Origin: an uncultured Algimonas sp.
GTDB taxonomy: Bacteria; Pseudomonadota; Alphaproteobacteria; Caulobacterales; Maricaulaceae
DNA: 64,000 nt
Direction of reading: 5' to 3'
Assembly: GCF_947498175.1 (NCBI RefSeq)
Contig: NZ_CANMJB010000002.1
Coordinates: 186,001 to 250,000 of the forward strand
In this document: piece by piece, positions 91 to 54,422 of the stretch
Layout: every line of letters begins with the position of its first letter
Position numbering within the stretch: position 1 is the stretch's first letter
The notes under the pieces: model-generated
What the model saw: the letters and a program-made list of their open reading frames with translations, nothing else
Databases searched by the model: none
Told to the model about the DNA's origin: nothing
Program-made: the position numbers and the translations under genes

Positions 91-95
91 AAAGC

Positions 96-186
96 CTCAT
101 CCCGGGTTCGACCCGGGATCCATGACGGGAGGACCGGTCTTGGCAGCACGGTCGGGAGACGGACCCCGGGTCGAGCCCGGAGTGAC
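96..186. repeat. Palindromic intergenic repeat pair (type A)
   Basis: Left arm CTCATCCCGGGTTCGACCCG at 96 onward is a short palindrome. An inverted, slightly diverged copy (GGACCCCGGGTCGAGCCCGG) ends the element, with a spacer of about 45 bases. It is the same arrangement as the copies at 48197, 50138, 52311, 54056 and 54243. It lies between the stop of the partial gene and the TetR gene. Confidence 0.8.
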
Positions 187-216
187 GGATGTAGTCGGGT
201 CCGAGGGCAGGGTCTC

Positions 217-39669: not shown

Positions 39670-39704
39670 GTTGGAAAAAAAGACAGCATAGTCAACAATA
39701 TCCG

Positions 39705-39763
39705 CTCATCCCGACGAAAGTCGGGATCCAGGTCGGAGGTCAGGGACGGGATCAAGCCTGGGG
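39705..39763. repeat. Palindromic repeat, type B, plus a degenerate type A half
   Basis: ATCCCGAC-GAAA-GTCGGGAT (39708-39727) is a perfect 8-bp palindrome flanked by CTC and CCAGG. It is followed by ACGGGATCAAGCCTGGGGC, which resembles the right arm of the type A elements. It sits in the 166-base gap between the TSUP transporter and the amidohydrolase. Confidence 0.7.
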
Positions 39764-48067: not shown

Positions 48068-48196
48068 AAGGGCGCGCTGGCGCGCGGCTGATTTGGCTGT
48101 CCCTCCTTCGCGGCGACTCATTCTGTCCGCGGGGCATCGAGAGTGACCTACCGTCGCCGGTCCATCATTGAGACGTGCTGAAAGATCCCCTCTCGT

Positions 48197-48289
48197 CCTC
48201 ATCCCGGACTTGATCCGGGGATCCATCACGGAACGCCGCCGCCAGCTCGACGGGCGGGAGATGGATCCCGGATCAAGTCCGGGATGAGG
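48197..48289. repeat. Palindromic repeat pair (type A)
   Basis: Left arm CCTCATCCCGGACTTGATCC and right arm GGATCCCGGATCAAGTCCGG, about 93 bases end to end, between cysS and the secreted-protein gene. The internal spacer is about 35 bases and carries no ORF. Confidence 0.85.
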
Positions 48290-48328
48290 GATGTGGATAG
48301 GTCGCTCCGCGCGATAGCGCGTCGGTCC

Positions 48329-49604: not shown

Positions 49605-49977
49605 CTCACCCCGGACTTGACCCGGGGTCCATCACCCAACAATCGAAAGCATGGTCAAAGGCTATGTCTACATTCTCTGCAACCGCAAGAACGGCACGCT
49701 CTATGTTGGTGTGACCAAGGATATCTTTGCGCGATTGTCCGAACACAAGGCACAGGCCGACCCCGATAGTTTCACCGCGAAGTACGGCGTGACGCGTCTG
49801 GTCCATCTGGAAACCTACGACTTCGTCAGCGAGGCGATCGCGCGCGAGAAGCAGATCAAGAACTGGAAGCGCCAGTGGAAGATCGCGCTGATCGAAGAAG
49901 GCAATCCCGACTGGGAGGAAATCCGTCTGGATTGGCGCGACGTCAGGTGATGGACCCCGGGTCGAGCCCGGGGTGAG
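49605..49977 (+). mobile_element. Candidate palindrome-bounded GIY-YIG element
   Basis: A left type A arm (CTCACCCCGGACTTGACCCG onward, 49605-49633) is followed 17 bases later by the GIY-YIG start, and the right arm (GATGGACCCCGGGTCGAGCC onward, 49949-49977) overlaps the GIY-YIG stop codon. The gene fills the space that is a spacer of only 35-45 bases in the empty copies. This suggests an autonomous form of the type A repeats in which the nuclease acts on the palindromes. No target-site duplication was established. Confidence 0.55.
49651..49950 (+). CDS. GIY-YIG nuclease domain protein
   Basis: A 99-aa single-domain GIY-YIG protein. N-terminal YVYILCNRKNGTLYVGVTKD supplies the paired Y...YVG strands, followed by the catalytic Arg region ARLSEHK and the EAIAREKQIKNWKRQWKIAL helix with the metal-binding Glu. 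The C terminus NPDWEEIRLDW is typical of small chromosomal members. Its TGA stop overlaps the right palindrome arm. The native substrate is unknown. Confidence 0.92.
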   Translation: MVKGYVYILCNRKNGTLYVGVTKDIFARLSEHKAQADPDSFTAKYGVTRLVHLETYDFVSEAIAREKQIKNWKRQWKIALIEEGNPDWEEIRLDWRDVR

Positions 49978-50137
49978 GGTGCTCGAGGGGTTTGGAGTGT
50001 GCGCTTCGCTCTTCGACTACAGTCCGCCATCCCGCAGCTCCCATCCACGTTCATCTTCGTTCCCAAAGGCACGGGGAAAGGGATTGCGTGTGAGGACGGG
50101 TCGGCGTGACGAAAGGCCCGAATTGCTTCCTTTCTCC
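49978..50137. other. Intergenic region between two repeats, no gene seen
   Basis: 160 bases between the GIY-YIG element and the next palindromic repeat. I see no ORF of interest, no tRNA and no terminator. Confidence 0.5.
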
Positions 50138-50226
50138 CTCATCCCGGACTTGATCCGGGATCCATCTCCCAACGGTCAGGTCGGCCTAGAGGGTTCGTGA
50201 TGGACCCCGGGTCAAGTCCGGGGTGA
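50138..50226. repeat. Palindromic repeat pair (type A), empty copy
   Basis: CTCATCCCGGACTTGATCCG as left arm and TGGACCCCGGGTCAAGTCCG as right arm, with a spacer of about 35 bases (CTCCCAACGGTCAGG...). It lies 161 bases from the end of the GIY-YIG-containing copy, so the filled and empty forms are neighbours. Confidence 0.88.
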
Positions 50227-50249
50227 AGGAAACAGTAACCAGAAAACGC

Positions 50250-52252: not shown

Positions 52253-52310
52253 AGGGCTGCGCTTTCCCCGGGGATCGGACGGCTGCCAAAAAAGGAATCC
52301 GTTTTCTTTC

Positions 52311-52402
52311 CTCATCCCGGGCTTGACCCGGGATCCATCGCCGAACCGATAAGGTCGGTCCGGCCCTAGCGTGATGGTCCCCGGGTCAAGCTCGGGGTGA
52401 GG
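52311..52402. repeat. Palindromic repeat pair (type A)
   Basis: CTCATCCCGGGCTTGACCCG left arm and TCCCCGGGTCAAGCTCGGGG right arm with a spacer of about 40 bases. It lies between the lipoprotein gene and rnhB. Confidence 0.85.
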
Positions 52403-52471
52403 GGAAAGAGACCCGAGCTTCGGGACGTGCCGCTTTCCGTTTCCCCCTCGCCTCTTCTATCCTCGCCTCTT

Positions 52472-53725: not shown

Positions 53726-54055
53726 CGTGGGCGCTCTACAACGTCCAACCCATCCTTATCCCGGGCTCCATCACCCAACCGTTTCAGCCGGACGAAAGCG
53801 CAGGAGATGGGCGGGCCGATCAAGTCGGCCTGAGCGGGAAACGAGAGCATAGGGCAAGCCTGTAGGGGCGATGGAGGCCATGGCGTTTTCTCCGCTCTCG
53901 CCGGCCTGACCGGCGAGCCCATCGCCCAACCGTTCCGGCCGACTGAAACGGCAGGAGGGAGGCAGCCCGGTCGAGCGGATTTGCAGGACCGAGGGTGTCG
54001 TGCCTGCCTGTTTCCCGTCCTCGGACTTGTCCGGAGCTGTGCACCGATCCTTCAC

Positions 54056-54146
54056 CTCATCCCGGACTTGATCCGGGATCCATCTTCCGACGGTCTCGGC
54101 CAGCCTGAAGGTCCTGCGATGGACCCCGGGTCGAGCCCGGGGTGAG
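54056..54146. repeat. Palindromic repeat pair (type A)
   Basis: CTCATCCCGGACTTGATCCG left arm; TGGACCCCGGGTCGAGCCCG right arm; spacer of about 35 bases (CTTCCGACGGTCTCGG...). Confidence 0.88.
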
Positions 54147-54242
54147 GGATTGGGAGATAGGGCAAGCGATCGAAACGCCGATCAAGTCGGCCTGAGCGGG
54201 AAGGGGCAAAAGGTCGTGCCACGGTCTTTTCCTTTCTCTCAC

Positions 54243-54333
54243 CTCATCCCGGACTTGATCCGGGATCCATCTCCCAATGGTCTCGGCCAGCCTGACGGTC
54301 CTGTGATGGACCCCGGGTCAGGCCCCGGGTGAG
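54243..54333. repeat. Palindromic repeat pair (type A)
   Basis: CTCATCCCGGACTTGATCCG left arm; TGGACCCCGGGTCAGGCCCC right arm. Its spacer (CTCCCAATGGTCTCGGCCAG...) is nearly the same as that of the copy at 54056, so the two are recent relatives. Confidence 0.88.
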
Positions 54334-54422
54334 GGGATTGGGGGACGGGGTTGTATGGATCGTGTTTCAAGACCGGATCCGGGCGGGTAGCGAAGCGACC
54401 CGGCTGCAAGCCGCTTGACCGG

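Follow-up and report, generated by a model that had tools for sequence, protein, structure and literature searches.

A minimal GIY-YIG nuclease gene between CGTC-type REP arms: a candidate REP-mobilising system in Algimonas and other bacteria

Results

The nuclease gene and its arms

A small unit of one gene and two palindromic arms, which resemble repetitive extragenic palindromic (REP) sequences, lies in a 64,000-nucleotide (nt) stretch of DNA from an uncultured Algimonas sp. (contig NZ_CANMJB010000002.1, positions 186,001 to 250,000; the whole stretch is called the window here). The gene (49651..49950, plus strand), recognised as an open reading frame (ORF) with a match to PF01541 (E 6.5e-17), encodes a predicted GIY-YIG nuclease of 99 amino acids (aa). 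The inverted-repeat search of the window delimits the left arm, a CGTC-type REP with the tag TCTC facing outward, at 49605..49636 on the plus strand, and the right arm, its inverted copy with the tag CCTC, at 49946..49977 on the minus strand; both are 32 nt long, show 94% complementarity and are separated by 309 nt. The first-pass annotation had placed the gene exactly between two palindromic arms, and so it lies, with the ATG 14 nt past the end of the left arm and the TGA (49948-49950) inside the right arm. Each arm forms a hairpin on its own, its TCA... tag outside and its CCATC side facing the gene.

The same arms had been reported around short spacers at six other sites of the window. All six were recovered as gene-less REP dimers of the same family, each of ~97 nt and on the plus strand, with starts differing by a few bases: 92..188, 48194..48290, 50134..50230, 54052..54148 and 54239..54335 by both the repeat-family search and a regular-expression search, and 52307..52403 by the repeat-family search. 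Since the gene-bearing unit and the gene-less dimers have identical inner edges by reading of the sequences, the window gene occupies the position of the ~24-nt spacer of a dimer. A half-arm pattern with at most two mismatches occurs at 39 sites in the 2.85-Mb window genome (reversed-pattern control, 0), and the regular expression detects 14 distinct dimers in those stretches of this genome that were read. Most of the 14 have the spacer in common besides the arms, as judged by eye, and their flanks represent about nine contexts. Copies of the window repeat are also seen within the first 250 bases of contigs C3, C7, C11 and C13, and because several contigs begin at copies the copy number may be undercounted.

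Arms around related genes

Arms were scored by inverted-repeat alignment between the 200-nt flanks of each gene, with mismatched flank pairs as null. The protein family is present in 48 of the 60 genomes searched at order level, window genome included; the 125 family matches gave 113 loci once 12 that were fragments or among the weakest rows had been set aside, and 110 were tested after three truncated ones had been dropped. Here 79/110 loci exceed the 95th percentile of the null (13.0) and 53/110 the 99th, the median arm score being 21.5 versus 8.5 for mismatched pairs. By comparison, 1/29 rplS control loci (one locus dropped) and 0/10 YhbQ-type GIY-YIG loci are above the threshold. The arms foreseen by the first-pass annotation around related GIY-YIG genes thus recur, with differing stem sequences.

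The GIY-YIG control was split post hoc, the ten YhbQ-type loci being those with at least 49% identity to the query, and eleven further loci were kept out of it as members of the window's family. Undivided, it scores 8/18, and all eight come from a GIY-YIG lineage of their own, which has another REP type. In this lineage (WVYILRCADGSYYTG type; L130, L131, L132, L135, L136, L138, L141 and L142) flanking inverted repeats exceed the threshold at 8/8 loci, and several of the arms are of a different REP type (CCTTCGAGACG...CTCATCCTGAGGA).

In a sample of the phylum the family was found in 74 of 299 genomes, and 20 of the 26 testable loci among 28 new ones score above 13.0. The all-phyla set, the best 80 of at least 576 loci in named genomes and drawn from many phyla, has 46 of 77 tested loci above 13.0 and 34/77 above the 95th percentile of its own null (17.0). 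From a plasmid collection came 33 records, of which 14 were read, with 11/14 above 13.0, a cut-off used there with no separate null; those with arms include Azospirillum lipoferum, Shinella, Sphingobium and Novosphingobium pNL2 as well as Neisseria gonorrhoeae, Aeromonas caviae, Spirosoma and Planktothrix. In N. gonorrhoeae (L255) the family gene at 1501-1788 has dRS3-like repeats, a name matched by eye, within about 200 nt on each side, and in Planktothrix (L259) the gene at 1501-1785 is flanked by an MmeI-type restriction gene and DISARM drmA.

Arm type and pairing with the nuclease

Inverted-repeat alignment, reversed-control patterns and an unforced hairpin scan took the place of a strict REP detector requiring TC, stem, loop, stem and CCA, which had recognised the arms incompletely and had given counts hardly higher than those in resampled sequence (per Mb, 110 against 67 in the window genome and 25 against 8 in G028). 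The unforced scan fixes only TCA[TC] and the pairing and leaves the first two tag letters and the tail free. It yielded the tags CGTC (64), TGTC (48), GCTC (33) and CCTC (2) in the order set, CGTC in 37/54 hairpins of the phylum set, and TGTC in 51 of the all-phyla set. The tail CCA is the commonest in every set (86 hairpins in the order, 43 in the phylum and 33 in the all-phyla set), while CTA, CTC and CTT also occur. Hairpins stand in both flanks at 44/110 loci versus 0/102 shifted windows in the order set, 15/24 versus 2/24 in the phylum set and 14/77 versus 2/68 in the all-phyla set; for at least one flank the corresponding values are 72/110 versus 13/102, 21/24 versus 3/24 and 27/77 versus 6/68. 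Per kb and strand there are 1.1-7.6 GTCA hairpins up to 60 nt from the gene, against 0-0.24 at distances over 800 nt. With non-ORF DNA alone considered, hairpins per kb near versus far from the gene amount to 3.04 versus 0.48 in the order set and 3.21 versus 0.48 in the all-phyla set.

By tag, hairpin, CCA tail and, in the window genome, inverted dimers the arms are mostly members of the CGTC REP superfamily, from whose tag (CGTC, or TGTC or CCTC) GCTC departs. This superfamily takes in dRS3 of Neisseria and RPE-4 and RPE-6 of Rickettsia and is described as apparently having no transposase of its own (Di Nocera, De Gregorio and Rocco 2013, PMC3733652). Many non-proteobacterial loci, as read from the all-phyla alignments, have arms of the TGTCATTCTGAGCGAAGCGAAGAATCT kind, whose tag resembles the CGTC class and which we did not find in the sections read of PMC3733652.

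Between genomes, arm similarity is correlated with protein similarity (r 0.35 for 73 loci with an arm score of at least 16; 0/2000 permutations), and with 28 pairs with homologous flanks removed r is still 0.32 (0/2000 permutations). Dissimilar paralogues of a single genome have arms that resemble each other no more closely than arms taken from separate genomes do. By this comparison each nuclease lineage keeps its own arm sequence, also between genomes.

Dispersed units and unoccupied sites

Within one genus the species G113 and G226 contain several copies of one arm-gene-arm unit of ~513 nt at unrelated sites, and the homology between most of these copies stops at the outer arm ends. The exceptions are L280/L384, homologous over 743 nt, and the pairs L383/L290 and L284/L277, which are orthologous loci. 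L284 has two arms of 67 nt each, one the exact inverted copy of the other. In the close units L284, L396, L280, L384 and L385 the arms are mostly 95-99% alike and the whole units 87-88%, and in L383 and L290 the arms are 85-90% alike; the arms of close units look as if they were homogenised or more constrained. Among the 15 distinct copies read, a full open frame is absent from five, and one more has a frameshift close to its end. For the remaining nine, all intact, the median dN/dS is 0.07 (range 0.04-0.16; 23/36 pairs, dS < 1.2), which points to purifying selection on the intact nuclease. Five copies (L412-L416) retain both arms and have internal deletions of the gene, each a different one. 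In the six species G113, G226, G129, G109, G179 and G249 of this genus, half-arm copies number 161, 82, 32, 16, 7 and 0 (reversed controls 0), next to 4, 4, 2, 1, 1 and 1 family matches, the last partial and distant.

Contig C24 of G113 holds a unit at a site whose orthologues in the sister species G226, G109 and G129 are without it. In G226 another palindromic repeat, with 67 nt of different sequence in it, is found at this site, which therefore gives no exact pre-insertion site. The GIY-YIG unit of G113 likewise sits within another long palindromic repeat (CAGAGGGGGGCGCTGTCCC...), and the centre of the repeat is different in G226 (L396, L403). G179 and G249 were not counted as empty sites, the flanks in the former overlapping with loss of neighbouring sequence and those in the latter lying on two contigs.

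Similar absences were found in other genera. In Azospirillum lipoferum the 617 nt separating sufB from sufC hold the gene and its REPs. The four Azospirillum relatives read have neither the gene nor those REPs there; the gap measures 87-129 nt in the three with annotation, and in B510 it contains another inverted repeat. Shinella WSC3-e has the site filled and H4-D48 is without gene and REPs there. G007 (L150) has neither gene nor dimers, its divergence being too great for a junction. Sinorhizobium M103 was rejected as an empty site, since the alignment covers the gene and the strain differs in the number of upstream dimers.

The protein

In 33 family sequences Y7, Y18, G20, R28 and E66 are invariant, positions which we take to be catalytic in GIY-YIG nucleases. 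The AlphaFold2 model of the window protein is confident, with a mean pLDDT (predicted local distance difference test) of 91. By sequence and fold its nearest solved structures are UPF0213 proteins (1zg2 and 1ywl; fold-search E 2.7e-4 and 0.011), followed by weak matches, with E from 0.09 upward, to domains of Slx1, UvrC and I-TevI (query TM-score, TMq, of about 0.5-0.57 for Slx1). A bare domain resembling a branched-DNA nuclease would suit a folded repeat as substrate. PF01797, the HUH Y1 domain of REP-associated tyrosine transposases (RAYTs), has no match in the window genome; it has matches in 8/60 genomes, six of those above the cut-off.

Paralogues in the window genome

The window genome has seven PF01541 matches. 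UvrC (L006), a YhbQ-type protein (L001) and L003 have no arms of such kind, while the window gene, L004, L005 and L007 have arms with a different stem in each; those of L005 were recognised by eye, their inverted-repeat score of 12.5 being under the threshold. Genome-wide, with a gene's own arms counted, the arm patterns of L004, L005 and L007 occur at 14, 11 and 3 sites (reversed controls 0), for L007 one site beyond its own arms. A pattern search places REP copies of the L004 family at 53815..53837 and 54177..54199 (plus strand) and one of the L005 family at 39702..39729 (minus strand) in the window. Between 53700 and 54340 the window's own REP family is interleaved with that of L004.

Discussion

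Comparison across genomes presents arm-gene-arm as a discrete, dispersed and sometimes absent unit with REP ends, derivatives and a lineage-specific pairing of arms and protein, and from the alignments its movement as one unit is supported. We consider it fairly probable that the gene and arms of the window are a full-length copy of a REP system in which a minimal GIY-YIG nuclease of about 95 aa serves as the dedicated enzyme and mobilises the repeats. A full-length element with empty derivatives, comparable in logic to REPs and RAYTs and based on a GIY-YIG nuclease, had been suggested from the window alone; with arms at 79/110 loci this is supported, and a system that works like REP/RAYT without being RAYT is the best reading of the data. 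Counted in its favour are also the low dN/dS of the intact copies, the half-arm copy numbers beside the family matches in six species of one genus, and the lack of a PF01797 match in the window genome. Cutting and movement of the repeats by the nuclease is what we infer from the data.

In such a system the nuclease would recognise the folded arm, with its outward tag, hairpin and CCA tail, in single-stranded or cruciform DNA and nick both outer ends, at the tag or close to it. The nicking would mobilise its own unit in cis, and in trans dimers and solo REPs with the same stem; cut-and-paste, copying at forks and repair-templated copying are all candidate modes of movement.

Several observations weigh against a REP-mobilising nuclease. 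At order level 31/110 loci have no arms passing the threshold, and among the plasmid records two from Rhizobium (one locus) and one from Photobacterium have none above 13.0. The gene of Azospirillum and S. meliloti stands between two dimers and not within one. In 400 kb of G028, a genome with eight family matches, the strict detector made ten calls, none of them arm-like by eye. A target-site duplication is not evident in the flanks of the units or in the empty-site alignments, where flanks are about 5-15% diverged. The half-arm series of the six species includes gene-flanking arms, ignores kinship and favours G113 and G226, because the pattern derives from the arm of their lineage. Furthermore, 6/14 dimers of the window genome have shared flanks in two groups: L224, L225 and L234 have one flank in common, the flanks of L226, L233 and L235 are likewise common, and identity in the two trios is 83-98% over about 100-230 nt. 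The dimers at 54057 and 54244 are neighbours. Since flanks are shared, part of the dimer count comes from larger duplicated segments; some of the spread of dimers is due to larger duplications, and dimers also sit in larger dispersed repeats. Our confidence was lowered slightly when these flanks came to light.

Finally, two Sphingobium strains, TYG64 and TYG74, keep one palindrome without the gene at a site which MM15, MM7A and TYG46 have occupied and where TYG72 and TYG65 have neither palindrome nor gene. The retained palindrome (L266, L268), in the gap between fnrL and a response-regulator gene, is tagged at both ends. It is possibly a scar of excision or deletion, and a deletion between 8-nt stem repeats of two arms can equally explain it. 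The first-pass annotation had asked whether arms stand at orthologous sites regardless of the gene: at the other gene-less sites compared the arms are gone too, with these two strains as the exceptions.

The main rival, which we hold to be unlikely and yet the strongest of the alternatives, is homing. REP dimers would then owe their spread to something else, and the nuclease gene would be a second-level parasite: it would cut the spacer in dimers that have no gene and enter there through recombinational copying, with the arms as homology. GIY-YIG is a classical homing nuclease fold, and there is a weak match to TIGR01453, under its cut-off; the gene stands at the spacer position with inner edges common to the dimers, and TYG64 and TYG74 have a palindrome where the gene is lacking. 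However, the arms are absent along with the gene in the four Azospirillum relatives read (the repeat of B510 being another one), in Shinella H4-D48 and in G007, as well as at the C24 site in G226, G109 and G129. Arm sequence also follows protein lineage, no transposase was found for CGTC REPs (PMC3733652), and the window genome has no PF01797 match.

A domesticated nuclease with a housekeeping role in cutting the hairpins or cruciforms of REPs, both partners now being immobile, would be consistent with purifying selection on the nuclease and with Slx1 branched-DNA nucleases as its best fold neighbours after UPF0213. Several dispersed copies per genome, broken copies, the series of internal deletions and the absence at orthologous sites make this improbable. 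We give still less credit to the gene being cargo, that is, a passenger on REP-bounded DNA moved in trans by a RAYT-type or other transposase: PF01797 matches exist in 8/60 genomes, but the window genome has none, nor have 52/60 genomes, while the GIY-YIG family occurs in 48/60, and the arms follow the nuclease sequence. A gene lying by chance among common intergenic palindromes can practically be dismissed, for although the excess over other non-ORF DNA in the phylum set (24 loci) is just twofold (7.75 versus 3.8 per kb), the reversed-pattern controls are all 0, the mismatched-pair null is exceeded, and the controls stay at 1/29 for rplS and 0/10 for YhbQ-type loci, and at 0/102 for hairpins in both flanks of shifted windows (order set).

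Among known systems, the CGTC REP superfamily shares with the arms the tag, the A-T stem start, the short loop, the CCA tail and the inverted dimers (PMC3733652), and differs in that here a GIY-YIG gene repeatedly lies between or beside such REPs. REPtrons, which combine GTAG REPs with a RAYT (TnpA-REP, HUH Y1), also have one gene bounded by REPs and gene-less dimers, in their case called REPINs (REP doublets forming hairpins). In contrast to REPtrons, the enzyme here is GIY-YIG (PF01541) and not HUH Y1 (PF01797), and the tags are CGTC-like and not GTAG. According to the abstract of PMC8266576, enzyme and hairpin co-evolve in REPtrons. GIY-YIG homing endonucleases of the I-TevI type share the catalytic domain family PF01541, whereas the 99-aa window protein has no room for a separate DNA-binding domain and its gene is REP-bounded; at the window gene and the annotated plasmid loci read there is no intron, intein or interrupted conserved target gene, the position being intergenic with differing neighbours. 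UPF0213/YhbQ proteins are the closest solved structures, but YhbQ-type orthologues have no arms (0/10). Slx1, the next fold match (E about 0.09 and worse), is a nuclease on branched DNA; it acts with Slx4 and carries further domains, whereas here the domain is bare. Miniature inverted-repeat transposable elements (MITEs) and their parent insertion sequences share terminal inverted repeats and internally deleted derivatives, and, as for insertion sequences, copies are dispersed with homology ending at the terminal inverted repeats, some pairs being homologous further out. Here, unlike in those elements, the ends themselves are hairpins, no known transposase is present and target duplication was not seen.

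In the PubMed Central (PMC) literature, covered by titles and abstract openings among the matches listed, with subscription papers and preprints outside this scope, we found no link between GIY-YIG proteins and REPs, nor did the relevant passages of PMC12306157, PMC5082802, PMC1564403 and PMC9465073 contain one. The present family is a candidate enzyme family for the CGTC REPs, whose dedicated transposase was missing (PMC3733652). Nuclease-REP pairs are now listed in many genomes, so that the question can be tested with one small protein and one oligonucleotide.

CGTC REPs and GTCAT-tagged palindromes are among the commonest short repeats of bacterial genomes. We lean, if narrowly, towards a class of bacterial DNA transposons over many phyla whose only enzyme would be a bare GIY-YIG nuclease with the folded ends of the repeats as substrate, and which would be the mobiliser of the CGTC REPs and the related GTCAT-tagged palindromes; the second GIY-YIG lineage, with arms at 8/8 loci, may do likewise with another REP type. 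We know of no role of the GIY-YIG fold in mobile elements outside homing and retroelements. If this reading is true, a GIY-YIG nuclease can drive a mobile element with no further domain, and hairpin repeats would have been taken up by each of two unrelated folds of nuclease, HUH and GIY-YIG.
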